Made by a program: the position numbers and the translations under genes
Source: Acidobacteriota bacterium
Lineage (GTDB): Bacteria; Acidobacteriota; Thermoanaerobaculia; Thermoanaerobaculales; Thermoanaerobaculaceae
Assembly (NCBI GenBank): GCA_016213675.1
Contig: JACQZW010000040.1
Coordinates: 1-43,413, forward strand
Length of the DNA stretch: 43,413 bases
Reading direction: 5' to 3'
Shown: in pieces, positions 35,191-43,413 of the stretch
Position numbering within the stretch: position 1 is the stretch's first letter
Layout of the letters: every line of letters begins with the position of its first letter
Notes under the pieces: generated by a model
Told to the model about the DNA's origin: nothing
Databases searched by the model: none
The model's input: only the letters and a program-made list of their open reading frames with translations

Positions 35191-38019
35191 CTACTCCTTG
35201 ACTTGCTCGACCAGCCAGAGGTCGCCGGCCGTCTCGGCGCTCTCGAAGACGATCTCGTCGCCGCGCGGCGACCAGGCGGGGTAGCGCACGTAGCTGGTCG
35301 AGGGCTCGTTGTGGGTGAGCCGGCGACGAACGCCGCTGCGAACCGAGACCCACCACAGGTCCCAGGTCCCGTCGTGCAGCCGGACGTAGGCCACCTTGTC
35401 GCCGTCGGGCGAGAACGAGGTGGGCCAGTTCTTGCCCGGCTCGTCGGTGAGGCGGCGGACCTCGCCGCCGTCGGCGGACAGGAGCACGACGTGGTCGTCG
35501 TCGCCGCGTCGGAGCTCGGCGGCGAGGAGCCTCCCGTCGGGCGACCAGCAGGGGAACCCCAGCATCTCGGCGTCGAAGGAGACCTGGCGGGTGTGGGTGC
35601 CGTCGACGTCGGCGACCCACAGGTTGGCCGGCCCGCCCTTCACCGCGACGTGGTAGGCGATGCGGGTTCCGTCGGGCGACAGCCTGACGGCGTCGGCGCC
35701 GGGTTCGAGCGGGGCGAGCCGCGCCTCGCCGCTGCCGTCGGTCCTGACCGACCACAGCGACCACGGCCCGTCGCGGTCGGAGAGGAAGACGACCCGGCGG
35801 CCGTCCGGCGTCCAGCTCGCCCCGGTGTCGGCGTGGGGATCGACGGTGAGTTGTCGGAGGTCGGTCCCGTCGCGGCGCATCAGGAAGATGTCGCGGCTCG
35901 AGCCGATCTGCCAGCGGTCGAACGCCAGCCGCTCGCCGTCGGGCGAGAAGGCGGGGCGGTTGTTGCGGCCGCTGCCCTGGGTGAGCGGGCGAGGCGCGGC
36001 GACCGGCGCCCCGGTCCGCGGGTCGAGGGGCAGCGACCACAGGTTGGATGCCGTCGCGAGGGCGGTGTAGACCAGCCGGCGGCCGTCGGGCGAGATCGCG
36101 AAGTGACGCACCGACGCACCGCCGGCGGTCAGCACCTCGGCAGGCTGCCCCCTGGGCGTTCCGGACGACGGGTCGACCTCGATCCGCCAGACGCCGTAGC
36201 GCTCGCCAGCAGTCACCGCCGAGAAATGCAGCAACCGCCCGTCGGGCGAGATCTCGGGGTCGAACGCGACGAAGCCCTCCAGCACGACGGGCACGAAGCC
36301 GGAGCCATCGGCCGCGACCGACCACAGGCGGGACCGCTGGCGGTCGGAGGCGGTGAAGAAGAGTCGGTCGCCGTCGGGCGACCAGATCGGGGCGCCATGC
36401 CCGCCCGGCGGCTCGCCGGGCCGGGTGACCTGGCGCGGGTTCTGCCCGTCGGCATCGACGAGCCACAGGGTCGAGGGCGGCAGGGCCGCGGTCGCGTTCG
36501 CCGACAGGGTGGCGGTCGCGTCGGAGGAAAAGGCGAGCCGTCGGCCGTCCGGCGACCAGGCCGGGTGGGACCCGAACTCGGTCAGTTGCCGCGGGGTGCC
36601 GCCGAGGGCGGGGATCGCCCAGATGCCGCCGCGCCGGGCGGAGTAGAAGGCGATCAGCCGGCCGTCGGGCGACCAGGCCGGCTGGAAGTTCGACCCGCCG
36701 TCGGCGGTGACCTGCACCTCACGGCTGCCGGCGGCGAACTGCAGCACGAAGAGCTCGAACGAGCCGCCGCGGTTGGCCGCGAAGGCGAGCGAGCCGCCGT
36801 CGGGCGAGAAGCCGGGGTCGAGCTCGAGCCGCGGCCACGCCGTCACCTGGACGGGTCCGCCGTACCGCGCCGGCGCCGGCCGCGTGCTGCGCCACAGGCC
36901 GGCGGCCAGGGCCGCGGCGAGCAGCAGGGCGCCGAGCGCGCCGAGCTGCCACAGCCGCGTCCACCGTCGGACCATCGGTGTCGGGCCGATCCACGACAGG
37001 CTCGAGGCGGCCGTCGACGAGCCGGTGAGCGCGGCGACGGCGTCGCCGGCGCGCGGAACGCGGCGGGCCGGCTCGGGGTCGAGGCAGCGGCGGATGACCC
37101 GCTCCCACCGGCGGTCGAGCCCGGGGCGCAGCGACCGCGCCGACGGGGCGTCGTCGCGGATCCGCTTGAGCATCGTCGCCATCGGGGTGTCCGCCTCGTG
37201 CGGGCGGTGGCCGGTGACCATCTCGAACATCACGACGCCGAGGGCGTAGACGTCGGCGGCCGTCGTGACGGTCTGCCCCAACGCCTGCTCCGGCGCCATG
37301 TAGTCCGCGGTGCCGACGACGTTGTGCTCGTCGGTCAACTGCGGCCCCGACGAGTCGGCGGCCGGGTCCGGCATCGCCAGGCCGAAGTCGGTGACCACGA
37401 CCCGGACGCCGCCCTCGTCGGCGGGAGCGGGCTCCAGCGTTACGTTGGACGGCTTGAAGTCACGGTGGACGACCCCCGCCGCGTGGGCGGCGTCGAGTGC
37501 CGCGGCCATCTGCGCGACCAGCGGCAGCGCCTCGGCGGGCGACATGACCCCCACCGCCGCCAGGCGTTCGGCGAGGGTCTCGCCGTGGAGCAGCTCCATC
37601 GACAGCCCGGTGACCTCCTGCTCCCGGCCGAACGCGTCGGTCCAGCGGTGGCGGAAGACGTCGAAGATCCGGCACACGTTGCGGTGGGTGACCTGGCGGG
37701 CGAGGGCGATCTCGCGGCGCAGGCGGTCGAGGGCCTTCGGCGCGGCGGCGAGCTCGGGGCGGAGGATCTTCAAGGCGACGGCGGCGCCGAGCTCGAGGTC
37801 CTCGGCCTCGTAGACCTCGCCCATGCCGCCGTGGGCGATGAACCGCACGACCCGGAAGCGGCCGCCCAGGTCCTGGCCGCGCATCAGCGCCGGGCCGCGT
37901 TGGGCCGGTGAGGGCGTGCCCGGAGGAGGCATCGTGGTGCGGAGCTCCTCGTCGCAGGAACCTTCGTCCCGCGGGGGGGGCCCGGGTGTGTCGGGCGCGC
38001 CGTCGAGAGGATCGGCCAT
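35191..38019 (-). CDS. Membrane-anchored Ser/Thr protein kinase with WD40-like (PD40/TolB) beta-propeller
   Basis: This is a 942-residue protein. A Pro-rich N-terminus precedes a Hanks-type kinase domain (about 54-330) with G-loop GGMGEV (64-69), K84, catalytic HRDFKPSN (185-192), DFG (211-213) and APE (242-244). All catalytic residues are present. One membrane helix follows (about 357-377). The outer half (about 390-940) consists of many PD40/WD40-like blades, each with a SPDG or closely related turn (SPDGRRLAFSS, SPDGRLIAFYS), typical of TolB-like propellers. The kinase is cytoplasmic and the propeller periplasmic, so it probably senses envelope ligands and phosphorylates internal proteins. 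This fusion is characteristic of Acidobacteriota and relatives. GCTACACT at 38039-38046 is the likely -10. Confidence 0.93.
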   Translation of the reverse strand: MADPLDGAPDTPGPPPRDEGSCDEELRTTMPPPGTPSPAQRGPALMRGQDLGGRFRVVRFIAHGGMGEVYEAEDLELGAAVALKILRPELAAAPKALDRLRREIALARQVTHRNVCRIFDVFRHRWTDAFGREQEVTGLSMELLHGETLAERLAAVGVMSPAEALPLVAQMAAALDAAHAAGVVHRDFKPSNVTLEPAPADEGGVRVVVTDFGLAMPDPAADSSGPQLTDEHNVVGTADYMAPEQALGQTVTTAADVYALGVVMFEMVTGHRPHEADTPMATMLKRIRDDAPSARSLRPGLDRRWERVIRRCLDPEPARRVPRAGDAVAALTGSSTAASSLSWIGPTPMVRRWTRLWQLGALGALLLAAALAAGLWRSTRPAPARYGGPVQVTAWPRLELDPGFSPDGGSLAFAANRGGSFELFVLQFAAGSREVQVTADGGSNFQPAWSPDGRLIAFYSARRGGIWAIPALGGTPRQLTEFGSHPAWSPDGRRLAFSSDATATLSANATAALPPSTLWLVDADGQNPRQVTRPGEPPGGHGAPIWSPDGDRLFFTASDRQRSRLWSVAADGSGFVPVVLEGFVAFDPEISPDGRLLHFSAVTAGERYGVWRIEVDPSSGTPRGQPAEVLTAGGASVRHFAISPDGRRLVYTALATASNLWSLPLDPRTGAPVAAPRPLTQGSGRNNRPAFSPDGERLAFDRWQIGSSRDIFLMRRDGTDLRQLTVDPHADTGASWTPDGRRVVFLSDRDGPWSLWSVRTDGSGEARLAPLEPGADAVRLSPDGTRIAYHVAVKGGPANLWVADVDGTHTRQVSFDAEMLGFPCWSPDGRLLAAELRRGDDDHVVLLSADGGEVRRLTDEPGKNWPTSFSPDGDKVAYVRLHDGTWDLWWVSVRSGVRRRLTHNEPSTSYVRYPAWSPRGDEIVFESAETAGDLWLVEQVKE

Positions 38020-38055: not shown

Positions 38056-39696
38056 CTACGGCGCCGGCGTCGGTGTCGGCGTGGGCGCCGGGGCCTTGAC
38101 CCGGTCGCCGGCGCCCTTGACGATCGCGCGGTACCACTCGTCGGGGTACTTCGGGTGCGTGACGTGGCCCTGGGCGTCGCGGACGTTGCCGTCGAGGTAC
38201 TTCCAGAGCAGGAACTCGCCGAGCTTGCGCCAGCGCGCCGTGACCATCTCGCCCTGCGTGCCCGAGTACGCCGTCAGGTAGTCCCGCCCGAGCTGCGGCG
38301 CCTGCTCGTACAGCTTGAGCGCCGCCTTCTCGACGTCGGCCTGGTCGCCGAGGAAGCGGCCCTCGAGCTCGCGCTGGACCTGCTGGATGTCGACGATCAT
38401 GTCGGAGTAGCGCGAGTACGCCCAGTTGGACACGAAGTTGAACGTCCAGAACGCCGAGCTCCACGAGAACTCGGAGAACTTCGCGGTGCCGGCGGCCCAG
38501 CTCTTCGGCGCCTCGCGGATGCCGCAGTAGAACGGCACGTAGACCGTCGAGTAGGTGTCGTCGACGCCGAACCAGAAGACGCCGCCGATCGGGTCGGGGA
38601 GCCTGTCGCGCGACTGGGCGACGAAGGAGAACCCGGTCTGCTGCGTCGAGATCGCCCGCTCGTGCACGTACGGCTTGCCGTCGACCTCCCAGGTCATCGG
38701 CCGCCACCGGTAGGGGCAGGCGAACGGGCCGGCGCCGACGTCCTTGGTCATGTCGAACGGGGTGTCCTCGAAGTGGTCGCGCATCAGCTCCATGACGTCG
38801 TGGACCGACAGCTTCTTGTCCGGCTTGACCCACAGTGGCAGGCGCTTGTCCATCGTGAAGCCGTCGACGTAGTCCGGGGTCAGCCCGGCCGACGGCGCGG
38901 CGCGGTTGAACACGCTCCACACCCGCGCCTCGCAGAAGCGCAGGGCGCCGAAGTCGAGCGGCGCGTAGGTGTCGGCGAAGGAAAACTCCTCGTCCTTGCC
39001 GGCAAACCACCCCTTGTCGCGGGCGAAGGAGATGACGTTCTTGGAGTACAGGCAGTTGGCCGGGTCGTTCTGCGGGAAGGTGCGGATCCGCGCCTGGTTG
39101 GCGTGGCCGGAGATCATCCCGTCGGGGACGCGGCGGGCGACCCACACCGCGCCCGTGGTCTTCTCGCCGGTGCCGATGATCTCCATGATCCAGACTTCCT
39201 TGGGATCGGAGATCGAAAAGGACTCGCCGGATGAGGCGTAGCCGTGCTCGGCGACCAGCCGGCCGATCACCTGGATCGCCTCGCGGGCGGTGGCGGCACG
39301 TTCCAAGGCGAGGAACATCAGCGAGCCGTAGTCGAGGATCCCCGACGGTCCCTCGAGCTCCTTGCGGCCCCCGTACGTCGTCTCGCCGACGGCGACCTGC
39401 TTCTCGTTCATGTTGCCGACCACCCAGTGGGTCCGCGCGGCCTGCGGGATGCGGCCGAGGAACTTGCCGGTGTCCCACTCGACGATGTCGCGCATCGCAC
39501 CGGGGCCGTACTGCCCGCCGGGGATGAGGACCAGCTCGCCGTAGAACTCGTGCGAGTCGGCGGCGTAGGTGATCATCGACGAGCCGTCGGCCGACGCCCC
39601 CTTGGTGACCAGGATGTTGGTGCAGGCGTCCGACGGGGCGGGCATGCCGGCGACGGCGGTGGCGACGACGAGCGCGACGAGCAGAGCCTTCCGCAT
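38056..39696 (-). CDS. Secreted C69-family dipeptidase
   Basis: This 546-residue protein belongs to peptidase family C69 (Ntn hydrolases such as PepD of lactobacilli). A signal peptide (about 1-24) ends directly before C25 in SDACTNILVTKGASADGS. In Ntn hydrolases the nucleophile must be the new N-terminus, and here signal cleavage would expose it. Further family blocks are MITYAADSHEFYGELV, HWVVGNMNEKQVAVGETTYG, SISDPKEVWIMEIIGTG and SGHANQARIRTFP. The predicted role is periplasmic hydrolysis of dipeptides. ATG 39696 is preferred over an upstream frame start at 39708 because GTGGAGGGAACC gives a good ribosome-binding site. The C-terminus is a (Thr-Pro)n stretch. A GCTACCAT box is at 39742-39749. 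Confidence 0.92.
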   Translation of the reverse strand: MRKALLVALVVATAVAGMPAPSDACTNILVTKGASADGSSMITYAADSHEFYGELVLIPGGQYGPGAMRDIVEWDTGKFLGRIPQAARTHWVVGNMNEKQVAVGETTYGGRKELEGPSGILDYGSLMFLALERAATAREAIQVIGRLVAEHGYASSGESFSISDPKEVWIMEIIGTGEKTTGAVWVARRVPDGMISGHANQARIRTFPQNDPANCLYSKNVISFARDKGWFAGKDEEFSFADTYAPLDFGALRFCEARVWSVFNRAAPSAGLTPDYVDGFTMDKRLPLWVKPDKKLSVHDVMELMRDHFEDTPFDMTKDVGAGPFACPYRWRPMTWEVDGKPYVHERAISTQQTGFSFVAQSRDRLPDPIGGVFWFGVDDTYSTVYVPFYCGIREAPKSWAAGTAKFSEFSWSSAFWTFNFVSNWAYSRYSDMIVDIQQVQRELEGRFLGDQADVEKAALKLYEQAPQLGRDYLTAYSGTQGEMVTARWRKLGEFLLWKYLDGNVRDAQGHVTHPKYPDEWYRAIVKGAGDRVKAPAPTPTPTPAP

Positions 39697-39741
39697 GGTT
39701 CCCTCCACAGTGGGACCGGCGCGACGGCCGGCCCGCCGCAG

Positions 39742-39769: not shown

Positions 39770-40864
39770 CTACGACCCGGGGCGGGTAAGGCGGCGACGG
39801 ACCTGGTGGCCCGCGGGCGGCTGCGCAGCGAGCGCGGCCCGCACCGGGACCGAGCACGTCAGCGCGAGGCCGTCTTCGGAGGTGCCGGCGAAGGTGAGCG
39901 TGCCGGTCTGCGGCCCGGGCGGGAGGTCCGCGACGCGGACGGCGACGGTCGCCTCGCCGGGGAGCGCACCGGCGGGCGTGACCTCGAGCCACGGGACGTC
40001 GGCGGCGGCGGTCCAGGTGACGACGTGTGGGCCGGCCAGCGCGACGGTCGCGACGGCGCTCGCCGGCTGCCCGGGGACGACGGTGAGCTCGAGCGCGGCC
40101 GGCGTCGCGAGCAGCGCGGCCGGCGCGGCGAGGGCGGCCTGCAGCATGTCCCAGCCGCCGGTGTGGCCGAGCGGCCGAAAGTCCACGACGGCAACCGCGT
40201 GGACGGCGTCCCAACTCTCCAGGTCCAGCGGATCGGTGTCGAGGACGAAGCCGGCGGAGGCGCCGGGCGCGAGCGGCTGGAAGACGGCGATGCGCAGCGC
40301 CGCCCGGACCGCGCGGCCGGTGACGCCCACCTGGACGTTCTCCCACACCAGGGCGTGGACCGCGGCCTCGTTGGCCGCGACGGAGAGCGTGTCGTCGGCG
40401 AGGTTTGCGACGCGGGCGTAGATGCGCAGGGTGTTGCCGACGCGGCGCGACCACGCCTCCACCCGGGCCTGCGGCGGGCGGGCCAGCTCGGCGTCGACGA
40501 TCGACCGGTACACGCTCGCGAACGCGACTGCGCCGTTGCTGATGCGGGCGCCGCTGTCGGCCATGACGAGCGGCAGGTAGATGGTCGGAGAGCCGGTGTA
40601 CGCCGCGCGCCACTGGTCGAGCCGGGTCCCGAGCGGGTGGTCGACGTCGTGCTCGAGGAAGACGACCGGCCGATCCGCGTACTCCTGTGCGAGCTGCTCG
40701 ACCGCCTGACCGGCGGTCCGGCAGATCGGTCAGGTGGGCCGCATGAACTCCTCGAACACCACGAGCCGCGGCTCGACGGCCTGCGCGGCGCACGGCGAGG
40801 GGAGCAGCGCCAGCGCCGTCGCCACGATCGTCGCAAGCGTCGAGCCGACACGGAGTACTCGCAT
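39770..40864 (-). CDS. Candidate selenoprotein: secreted thioredoxin-fold protein (UPIC motif), Omp28-like, with BACON-like C-terminus
   Basis: Read through an in-frame TGA (codon 45, 40730-40732), this is a 364-residue protein. A signal peptide (about 1-28, ending CAAQA) is followed by a thioredoxin-like domain (about 30-130): LVVFEEFMRPT, then U45-P-I-C48, then RTAGQAVEQLAQEYADRPVV, with a candidate cis-Pro in GSPTIYLP (P93). A central beta domain (about 130-250) and a BACON-like module (about 258-342, VPWLEVTPAGALPGEATV) follow. Without read-through the upstream part would be a 44-residue peptide that ends exactly in a redox motif. The downstream part would lack both signal peptide and start context (first ATG at 40564). 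The TGA replaces the first Cys of CxxC, the commonest selenocysteine position, and a SECIS-like hairpin follows. The gene lies 26 bp after the DUF1579 stop. Confidence 0.82.
40701..40732 (-). promoter_or_regulatory. SECIS-like element directly downstream of the in-frame UGA
   Basis: Counting the U of UGA as base 1, bases 16-21 (ACCGCC) pair with 27-32 (GGCGGU) around a 5-base loop GGUCA (bases 22-26). This gives a 6-bp perfect upper stem. The loop begins with G, as bacterial SECIS models require. The GGUC sits at bases 22-25, the same place as in the E. coli fdhF SECIS as I recall its sequence. Hairpin coordinates are 40701-40717 and the UGA is 40730-40732. Confidence 0.78.
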
Positions 40865-40890: not shown

Positions 40891-41484
40891 TCAGCGGCGG
40901 CGGTAGGTGAACACGGCCGACCGATACTCGCGGCCCGAGGCGTCGGCGCGGAACGCCTCCATGGTCCAGGTCCGCTCGTCGACCTCGGTCTCCACGGTGC
41001 GGATCGTGCGGATCGTGCCGCCCACCGGGTCCGGGCTGTCGCTGGTGAAGGTCAGGACCTTGCCGGCCGGGTCGGCGCTGCCCTCGGAGTGGAGGATTGC
41101 GGTGCCGGAGTCGTCGATCCAGGTGGAGACGTAGCGCCGGCGAATCTTGTCGAACCCTGCGACGCCGACGGCCTGGTAGGTGCCGCTCGGGGAGGACACC
41201 TCGAAGCGCTCCTCGAAGTAGCGTCCGCCGAGGATCGCCTGCCACTCCGATCGGCCCGCCGACTCGCGCGGCGTCGCGCCCGGCGCCGACCACGAGCGCA
41301 CCGCCACGTCCCAGCTCCCGACCCGGCGCGCCAGGACGGCGTGCTCCGGCCCGGGCGTGCCGTAGGCGGCCCATGCCTCCGCCCTGGTCGGCGTGGGTGA
41401 CGGGGCTGGAGCTTCCTGCGCGAGGACCGGCGCGGCGACGATGGCGACGAGCGCGGCGAGGGAGGTGGTCGAGGCGAGGCGCAT
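40891..41484 (-). CDS. Secreted DUF1579-family protein (copy 2)
   Basis: This is a 197-residue protein with a signal peptide (about 1-23, VAIVAAPVLAQ). DUF1579 blocks are present: HAVLARRVGSWDVAVRSWSA, SEWQAILGGRYFEERFEVSS, GVAGFDKIRRRYVSTWIDDS and a closing YRSAVFTYRRR. It is a paralogue of the protein at 9952-10554. The ATG at 41484 has GGAGGAACCC upstream. The candidate selenoprotein gene starts 26 bp after its stop codon and probably shares its transcript. The frame is open far upstream (to about 43311), but that part is a shadow. Confidence 0.88.
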   Translation of the reverse strand: MRLASTTSLAALVAIVAAPVLAQEAPAPSPTPTRAEAWAAYGTPGPEHAVLARRVGSWDVAVRSWSAPGATPRESAGRSEWQAILGGRYFEERFEVSSPSGTYQAVGVAGFDKIRRRYVSTWIDDSGTAILHSEGSADPAGKVLTFTSDSPDPVGGTIRTIRTVETEVDERTWTMEAFRADASGREYRSAVFTYRRR

Positions 41485-41655
41485 GGGTTCCTCCGTGGCC
41501 GACATGATGACAGGGTCCCGGTTGCTCCTGGCCTGTCCGGCGGTGACAATGCCCGCCGACATGTCGACAAGCCTTCCCCCGCTGGGTGCGCCGCTGTGGG
41601 AGCCGGCGCCCGCGACCGGCGCAACCTCCCCGCGTCTCGTGGCGGGAGGCCCGGC

Positions 41656-42366
41656 GTGAGGCGCGCCGACCGGCTCTTCCGCCTGCTCCTCGAGCTGCGC
41701 CGCGGGCGAGTCGTCACCGCGGATCAGCTCGCCAGGAGGCTCGAGGTTTCCGCGCGCACCGTCTACCGCGACGTCGCCGACCTGTCGGCGTCGGGCGTGC
41801 CGATCTGCGGCGAGACCGGCGTCGGCTACCGCCTGGCCGGGTTCGAGCTGCCGCCGCTCATGTTCGACCGCGACGAGGTCGAGGCGCTCGCCCTCGGGGC
41901 GCGCACCGCCGAGGCGTGGGGCGACGCCGCCCTGGCCCGCGCCGCCCGCTCGGCGCTGGCCAAGATCGAGGCGGCGCTGCCGCGCGGGCGGGAGCGGCTC
42001 GTCGAGGAGACGCGCCTCTACGTCCCGACCTGGGGCGAGCCGCCGGGCGAGCGGCTGCCGCTGGCCGACCTGCGCCGGGCGATCCGCGAGCGCCACCCGG
42101 TTCGCCTCGACTACCGCGACGAGCAGGGTCGGGCGAGCGACCGCACGGTGCGACCGCTCGCCCTCGCCTTCTATCCGCCGCGCTGGCTCCTCATCGCGTG
42201 GTGCGAGCTGCGCGGTGACTTCCGCAACTTCCGGCTCGACCGCATCGCCGGCTGCGCCGTGGCCGACGGTGTCTTCCCCGACGAGCCGGGCACGACCCTC
42301 GCCGACTACGTGCGCCAAGTCGAGGCCGAGGCCGCCGCCTGGCAGGCCCGTCAGTCGTCGCCGTAG
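41656..42366 (+). CDS. HTH/WYL-domain transcriptional regulator (YafY/DeoR-like)
   Basis: This is a 236-residue cytoplasmic regulator. An N-terminal winged HTH of the DeoR/HTH_11 type (about 1-60) has ADQLARRLEVSARTVYRDVA and GVPICGETGVGYRL. A WYL domain follows (about 125-205), with PVRLDYRDEQG and RTVRPLALAFYPPRWLLIAW. The usual WYL tripeptide is replaced by WLL. WYL domains are thought to bind small ligands or nucleic acid, and many YafY members control stress or defence genes; the target here is unknown. GTG 41656 is favoured by GGGAGG at 41644-41649; an upstream ATG at 41596 gives a Pro/Arg-rich extension with no domain. It overlaps the DinB gene tail-to-tail by 16 bp. Confidence 0.88.
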   Translation: MRRADRLFRLLLELRRGRVVTADQLARRLEVSARTVYRDVADLSASGVPICGETGVGYRLAGFELPPLMFDRDEVEALALGARTAEAWGDAALARAARSALAKIEAALPRGRERLVEETRLYVPTWGEPPGERLPLADLRRAIRERHPVRLDYRDEQGRASDRTVRPLALAFYPPRWLLIAWCELRGDFRNFRLDRIAGCAVADGVFPDEPGTTLADYVRQVEAEAAAWQARQSSP

Positions 42367-42827
42367 GGCATCGCCGGCACCTTGCCGAGCAGCCGCGCGT
42401 AGACCGCCAGCGAGCCGCGGTGGTGCGCGGTGTGGTCGGCGATCCCGGTGACGGTGTAGGCGCGCGCCCGGGGTGGCAGGATCGGGTTCTCGGCGATCGT
42501 CTCGCCGAGCTTCGCCTCGGGCATCGCCTCGACGGCGGCGCGGAGGCGTCCCCACGCCTCGCCGAGCCACCGGCGCGCCTCGGCGAGCGACTGAACGCGC
42601 GCTAACTCGGCGGCCATCGCCTCCCAGTCCATCGTCCAGCGGTCCTCGAACCCGCCCGCGCGGAACCAGTCGATCGACTGCGCCACGTGGGCGATCTGGG
42701 CGGTGACGGTCATCGTCTCCGGCGTCGGGCTGAACCCCGCGTCGGCCTCCTCGAGCACACGGGTGGTGCGGTCGAAGAACTTCCGGGTCGCCTCGATGTC
42801 GGCCAGCGCTTCGGTCTTGAGGTCCAT
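42351..42827 (-). CDS. DinB-family (DfsB/YfiT-like) protein
   Basis: This is a 158-residue four-helix protein. Conserved His positions are IAHVAQSIDWFR (H47) and GIADHTAHHRGSLAVYARLL (DHxxHHRGxL), which together form the metal site of the DinB/YfiT superfamily. Members are damage-inducible or thiol-dependent transferases (bacillithiol or mycothiol type); the substrate here is not known. AAAGGAGACGACACC precedes the ATG at 42827. The 3' end overlaps the WYL regulator. Confidence 0.88.
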   Translation of the reverse strand: MDLKTEALADIEATRKFFDRTTRVLEEADAGFSPTPETMTVTAQIAHVAQSIDWFRAGGFEDRWTMDWEAMAAELARVQSLAEARRWLGEAWGRLRAAVEAMPEAKLGETIAENPILPPRARAYTVTGIADHTAHHRGSLAVYARLLGKVPAMPYGDD

Positions 42828-42908
42828 GGTGTCGTCTCCTTTCGCGGCGCCGCGGCGGTCCGCCGCGCGCCGGGAGGAGTATCGACGGCCCCTCCTGCCA
42901 CCGTCCTG

Positions 42909-43413
42909 TCAGGAGCCGTCGCCGCCCGGGCCGCCGATGTCGCGGTGGAGCGCGATCATCGCCTCGCGGACGTGGTGCATCAGGGCGTCGCGGTCGGCCT
43001 CGGCGAGGCCGGCGGTCGGGATCGGCTCGCCGACCTTGACGCGCACCGAGCCGGGCCGCAGCGTGAAGGTGCCCGGCGGCATGACGCCGGCGGTCCCCTC
43101 GACGGCGATCGGCACGATCGGCACGCCGGCCTCGAGCGCGACCACGAACGGACCCTTCTTGAACGGTTGGATGCGGCGGTCCCGGGCGCGCGTCCCCTCC
43201 GGGTAGACGAGGATGCTGGCGCCGGCGCGAATGTGCCGGCCGGCTTCGGCCAGGCTCTCGATCGCCGACTCGCGGTCCGAGCGGTCGACGAAGACCATCC
43301 CCGTCGCCCACATGTACCAGCCGAGGAACGGCGTGTACTTGAGCGAGTGCTTGGCGACGAAGCGGAGGTTCTGCGGGATGGTCGCGAAGGCGATCACGAT
43401 GTCGAAGAACGAC
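42909..43413 (-). CDS. plsC: 1-acyl-sn-glycerol-3-phosphate acyltransferase (PlsC family), N-terminally truncated by the window edge
   Basis: About 168 codons are present; the start lies beyond 43413. The visible frame begins SFFDIVIAFA. The Asp is probably the D of the NHxxxxD catalytic motif, with its His just outside the window. Following blocks are RFVAKHSLKYTPFLGWYMWA, GMVFVDRSD, ILVYPEGTRARD with the substrate-binding EGTR, and PFVVALEAGVPIVPIAVEGT. It acylates lysophosphatidate to phosphatidate at the inner membrane. The frame ends in GGPGGDGS. The membrane-helix N-terminus is missing from view. Confidence 0.93.
   Translation of the reverse strand, partial: SFFDIVIAFATIPQNLRFVAKHSLKYTPFLGWYMWATGMVFVDRSDRESAIESLAEAGRHIRAGASILVYPEGTRARDRRIQPFKKGPFVVALEAGVPIVPIAVEGTAGVMPPGTFTLRPGSVRVKVGEPIPTAGLAEADRDALMHHVREAMIALHRDIGGPGGDGS

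Follow-up and report, generated by a model that had tools for sequence, protein, structure and literature searches.

A minus-strand gene in the Acidobacteriota contig JACQZW010000040.1 (the window, meaning the whole 43,413-nucleotide stretch that was analyzed) contains a TGA codon in its reading frame, which could be a stop signal or could be read as selenocysteine (Sec). The gene occupies 39770..40864, and translation from 40864 to 39770 gave 364 residues, TGA counted, and a terminal stop, confirming the statement of an earlier note on this DNA that the frame is broken by this TGA alone. The codon lies at 40732-40730 (40730..40732 on the minus strand) and is codon 45, in the context FEEFMRPT-TGA-PIC, where the TGC codon for Cys48 (40721..40723, minus strand) would complete a UPIC motif with the predicted selenocysteine in its first position. 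The gene has 58 homologous proteins, 6 of which cover codon 45. We conclude, with a probability of about 0.88, that codon 45 is decoded as Sec and that the product is a likely exported thioredoxin-fold protein in which Sec45-x-x-Cys48 would form a selenol/thiol-disulfide redox center. Most of the weight falls on two findings, the recurrence of TGA at a single codon across 15 genomes and the presence of the Sec machinery.

We addressed the recurrence of the codon with a six-frame search of whole genomes (E ≤ 0.001), which matched 32 of 396 genomes sampled from the phylum, many solely in the C-terminal BACON-like part of the protein; matches were found in 12 of the 17 genomes of the family and 20 of the 37 of the order. 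Codon 45 could be compared across 27 loci; three further weak matches at or close to it (L051, plus G199 and G266, which have no assigned locus; E 4.9e-4 to 8.8e-4) are not among them. It was TGA in 16 loci, TGC (Cys) in 4, and GGC or GGT (Gly) in 7. The 15 genomes behind the TGA loci comprise 14 of the 37 in the order and G062, which belongs to another class; the sixteenth locus, L062, is a partial second copy within one genome whose site is identical to that of L052. Thus, TGA falls on the exactly aligned codon in 15 homologous loci from 15 genomes, with protein similarity continuing on both sides. The named records among these loci are metagenome-assembled genomes of Acidobacteria, Thermoanaerobaculia, or Thermoanaerobaculaceae, and five of the genomes correspond to public records (JAKAFI010000243.1, MEKI01000140.1, JALHTD010000477.1, JAHECW010000186.1, and JAMOWA010000061.1). 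The earlier note had advised looking for Cys or Sec in homologues at this position; the TGA and Cys loci fit, but the seven Gly loci, which have neither, had not been foreseen. In this GxxC form (L024, L061, L065, L068, L069, L070, and L094), the second Cys is kept and Gly stands at the Sec position. Two genomes, G374 and G396, each carry Sec, Cys, and Gly forms as paralogues, and G062 carries Sec and Cys forms.

Four of the loci (L027, L028, L067, and L071), from another family of the order, differ in layout: the Sec domain seems to lie at the C-terminal end of a longer frame, which stops shortly past a D-x-LQA motif and has no BACON-like domain. Spread beyond Acidobacteriota was probed only by contig searches with a single protein and with one peptide pattern. 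The single-protein query gave no match; the pattern, taken from an alignment of the family, gave 12 loci, of which 11 were site-identical to known loci and one, with Gly, was new.

The genome that contains the window (95 contigs, 92% complete) encodes the machinery for Sec insertion. We found selB (304.8 bits), selA (458.3 bits), and two selD genes (367.9 and 356.8 bits), each above its family cut-off, and a tRNA-Sec (74.9 bits, above cut-off), which ARAGORN called as tRNA-SeC with anticodon tca; all four components whose presence the earlier note had left to be checked are therefore there. The stand-alone selD (C18:63805-64728) has an in-frame TGA of its own, CAG-TGA-ASK, at a U-x-x-K site. 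UxxK is the motif that PMC13188914 tables for Sec-SelD, and the fit makes this selD a likely second selenoprotein of the genome. The other selD (C28:80440-81360, in an open frame of 744 aa) is a Cys form and is fused behind a domain that by eye resembles cysteine desulfurase (NifS); PMC4561486 describes two fusions of NifS with SelD among prokaryotes. Across the order, selA was matched in 34 of 37 genomes (33 above cut-off), so finding selA together with the Sec form carries no information.

Folding and alignment located a hairpin resembling a selenocysteine insertion sequence (SECIS) at 40700..40718 (minus strand). In the 19-nt piece from the locus itself, a 7-bp stem closes a GGTCA loop that starts 18 nt past the TGA, with an energy of -13.6 kcal/mol. 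The consensus of the 15 TGA loci has an 8-bp stem, in which columns 15-22 counted from the TGA pair with columns 26-33, and a small G-led loop at 18-19 nt; all 8 pairs form in 11 loci, which have a 3-nt loop, and 7 form in the other 4. When only the 19-nt piece was folded, each of the 15 TGA loci fell within the limits that the Fig. 2 legend of PMC13188914 gives for a bacterial SECIS (loop of 3-9 nt whose first two positions include G, stem of 4-16 bp, spacing of 16-37 nt, and minimum free energy ≤ -7.5).

The alignment of the TGA loci (which excludes L062) was 96.7% paired over 120 cells and contained compensatory changes, with pair 17-31 occurring as CG, GC, UA, and UG and pair 18-30 as CG and UA. 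None of 500 shuffles, which ignore relatedness, reached the observed paired-cell count or covariation score. Among 203 windows folded along the codon alignment of the TGA loci, the top seven all contained the stem (-14.05 kcal/mol versus a median of 0). An alignment of nine non-TGA loci (Cys or Gly) was 69.4% paired, with a consensus energy of -0.84 at the site, rank 37 of 209. Counted row by row, which added L094 and L101 (6 of 8 pairs each), the Cys loci formed 5, 6, 5, and, in L101, 6 of the 8 pairs. Every TGA locus thus has all or nearly all of the stem, which is weaker in the Cys loci and partly retained in two Gly loci. Rfam had no family at gathering score within the window, and a search to E 1 in four loci returned one weak, unrelated match off the site.

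We then considered the protein relatives. Two protein searches, the second represented by the best 120 of its 184 matches, gave 170 homologues. Among the matches listed, 113 extend at least 20 residues ahead of the site, and these have Gly (83), Cys (28), or a gap (2) at position 45, Gly being the commonest residue. Of the 57 short homologues in the same lists, 56 start at query positions 49-101, past the site, and one starts at 27. The present gene appears in the searched protein set as a 264-aa fragment (P0002) that begins at 40564, exactly where the earlier note had expected gene callers to start it, and the NCBI-named P0033 likewise reads from a TGA locus (L054/L085) and begins past its TGA. 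When P0001-P0058 were tried against DNA, P0001, P0002, and P0033 were the only short proteins to find a match, P0001 over a shared stretch only. Cys48 was conserved in all 55 rows that reach the position, the remaining 25 of 80 rows being gapped. A quick tree, built from 50 rows after masking the site, placed the 15 Sec rows with 5 Cys rows and 1 Gly row (L024) in one supported half and left only Gly and Cys rows in the other. At least five changes between Sec and non-Sec were required on this tree, which is unrooted and gives no direction of change.

The fold is predicted to combine a thioredoxin domain, an Ig-like domain, and a BACON-like domain. Residues 1-29 (40778..40864, minus strand, as are all features of the protein) resemble a signal peptide by eye, with a basic start, a hydrophobic run, and A-x-A, and have low model confidence (block means 43-61). 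Residues 30-130 (40475..40777) are thioredoxin-like, as judged from the match of a family profile to thioredoxin-1 (E 9.3e-5) and from the predicted model, which has a strand at 35-41, a helix at 46-61, a strand at 67-73, strands at 99-110, and a helix at 115-127. In this model, the motif sits where helix 1 of the thioredoxin fold begins. Pro98 (40571..40573), in a YLP segment directly before the strand at 99-102, is likely the cis-Pro that faces the active site. The earlier note had assigned the cis-Pro to a GSPT segment, and we rejected that assignment: Pro93 is Pro in just 3 of 80 rows, whereas Pro98 is invariant in 80 of 80. An Ig-like beta-sandwich domain follows at residues 131-248 (40121..40474), and residues 250-348 (39821..40117) form a BACON-like Ig-type domain. 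BACON_2 matches 74 of 80 family members at E ≤ 0.01; the present protein scores E 0.0027 and 18 bits, under Pfam's 25.

The nearest fold to the predicted model is HBP35 of Porphyromonas gingivalis (PDB 5y1a), which shares the thioredoxin plus Ig-like architecture. It differs in having Cys rather than Sec, in being only 12% identical, and in lacking the BACON-like domain that follows in the present protein. A type IX secretion C-terminal domain is a feature of HBP35; a general Pfam scan of our protein (to E 1) gave no model for one, no dedicated test having been made. HBP35 is reported to bind hemin through its later part and to have an active CxxC. A second relative in fold, AGR_C_4864 of Agrobacterium tumefaciens (PDB 2axo), which we take to be a DUF1223 protein, is 16% identical and is a 222-residue chain without a counterpart of the third domain. 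The top Foldseek rows (protein 4.2 and transglutaminases; TM ∼0.2) fitted poorly and were set aside.

Among known selenoproteins, Table 1 of PMC13188914 lists UxxC families with a thioredoxin fold (Trx, SaoT, HUIPC-motif Trx-like, DsbG-like, and others) in which Sec likewise comes first in a CxxC-type motif. The table, published in 2026, covers 119 families of prokaryotic selenoproteins; many of them are UxxC families, and none of the entries names the three-domain make-up seen here. We compared entries by name, and by score where an NCBIfam or Pfam model exists, not by sequence, so an entry without a model could overlap; the families of Haft and Tolstoy 2025 were compared through this table and NCBIfam alone. 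Thioredoxin PF00085 scored 14.6 bits against the 23.5 needed, and in NCBIfam the MJ0307-type thioredoxin scored 16.3 of 92.75 bits and SaoT 11.4 of 65, with none of the other UxxC families among the matches listed. NCBIfam release 20.0 had no model over cut-off for the five proteins scanned (our own, P0004, P0032, P0034, and P0047); the model for Omp28 family lipoproteins (NF033782) gave a weak match to residues 30-68, with an E of 0.021 and a score of 14 bits where 150 are required. Searches of the open-licence literature gave no on-topic report linking selenoproteins with Thermoanaerobaculia, Omp28, or the BACON domain, PMC5579227 being judged off topic by its listing. On selenoproteins of Acidobacteriota they listed little besides PMC12013277, which counts three known selenoprotein genes for a single genome of the phylum. 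We file the protein as a new selenoprotein family of known kind, set apart by name and model score from the tabled families.

If codon 45 is read in this way, SelB bound to the hairpin would deliver Sec-tRNA to the UGA, and the N-terminal segment, identified by eye, would take the protein out of the cytoplasm. There, the thioredoxin domain may be held by the Ig-like and BACON-like domains somewhat as in HBP35; Sec45 would attack disulfides, and Cys48 would resolve the Se-S bond, giving thiol-disulfide exchange at the envelope. Our confidence is lower for the redox step than for Sec insertion, mainly because the Gly forms show that members can function without the residue-45 side chain.

We were concerned that the TGA might be a true stop, in a decayed gene copy or in a gene whose product comes in two pieces with a restart at 40564. 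The searched protein set does contain exactly that 264-aa product, and gene callers treat TGA as a stop. Decay, however, would scatter stops, whereas 15 genomes have TGA at the same codon with similarity on both sides. The restart would moreover lie inside the thioredoxin domain, so that its first strand and helix would be lost, and we regard a true stop as very improbable. Cys loci exist and a Cys codon (TGC or TGT) is one base away from TGA, which could suggest a sequencing or assembly error; that is scarcely credible, since TGA occurs in 15 separate genomes, five of them tied to named public records, which argues against a base error. A further alternative is that the TGA is read as Trp or by plain readthrough. 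Sequence alone does not name the residue, but the full-length relatives have Cys or Gly apart from the two gaps, with no Trp among the matches listed, and both a full Sec system and the SECIS-like hairpin are present, leaving this a faint prospect.

Several observations weigh against decoding as Sec in a redox center. For the hairpin, the counts of changed pairs and of pair types were weaker than the other statistics, being reached by 14 and 17 of 500 shuffles (relatedness again ignored), and stem partners shifted by +3 still paired in 67.5% of cells. The Gly loci form 4-7 of the 8 pairs; L024 and L061 form 7, equaling four TGA loci, and the other non-TGA loci form 4-6. The hairpins of these two Gly loci could be remnants of a former SECIS or could reflect shared ancestry and GC-rich coding constraint. 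In single-sequence folding, which took 19 loci (without L067-L072), energies were unremarkable for GC-rich DNA, with z from -3.14 to +0.14 over 14 TGA rows; 7-44% of windows from the same locus folded equally well, and a competing hairpin was the best 54-nt fold in 4 of the 14 (L023, L052, L055, and L062). A 56-nt stretch of the present locus did fold unusually well (z -4.56). We rejected single-sequence hairpin energy as evidence. In the selA search of Sec-form genomes, which left out G062, two (G400 and G403; 89% and 84% complete) had no selA match, yet both have tRNA-Sec, and the top selB match of G403 was under cut-off. The predominance of Gly at position 45 among full-length homologues means that the residue pair is not required in every member, and none of the 10 flanking proteins scanned (from 6 of 10 regions) was a redox partner.

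These last two points also favor a selenoprotein in which residue 45 is no disulfide redox center and instead binds a metal or ligand together with Cys48, or reduces peroxide; Cys48 is kept beside Gly45 in most full-length relatives. However, the CxxC of HBP35 is reported to be active. A UxxC or CxxC placed where helix 1 of a thioredoxin fold begins also marks the classic disulfide site, and we consider a role other than disulfide exchange unlikely. We therefore retain Sec45 and Cys48 as the probable redox pair; the earlier note's proposal of a probable selenoprotein with TGA at the first position of UxxC is supported by the Sec machinery, the recurrence of TGA, and the hairpin.

Eight of the 10 flanking proteins matched families: MgtC/DUF4010 (twice), alanine dehydrogenase, PHO4, a solute-binding protein, a LacI-type regulator, queuosine salvage, and an ABC ATPase; the other two had no family match. 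MgtC/DUF4010 was the sole recurring family, in two genomes of one genus. In the window, the minus strand downstream of the gene encodes a peptidase C69 family protein (38056-39708) and a protein kinase carrying PD40 beta-propeller repeats (35191-38019). Upstream, the minus-strand frame 40891-43311 (806 aa) has a DUF1579 domain at residues 652-805 only, so the true start of the gene may lie far downstream of the frame's own start.

Taken together, we think it likely, reasoning from sequence comparison, that these loci represent an undescribed family of exported selenoproteins with a thioredoxin domain on an Ig-like/BACON-like stalk, occurring in the Acidobacteriota class Thermoanaerobaculia and in one or more further classes. 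Its active-site position would have switched repeatedly between Sec and Cys, with Gly in many relatives and with Sec, Cys, and Gly paralogues within single genomes; some Gly copies may retain traces of a SECIS. Gene calls lose the active site of the Sec form, as the present gene and P0033 illustrate by starting past their TGA codons. The family would extend the tabled prokaryotic selenoprotein families (PMC13188914), and genomes G374 and G396, with all three forms side by side, provide a test bed for the benefit of selenium at one position. If the assignment is true, it would place selenium chemistry at or outside the envelope of Acidobacteriota.
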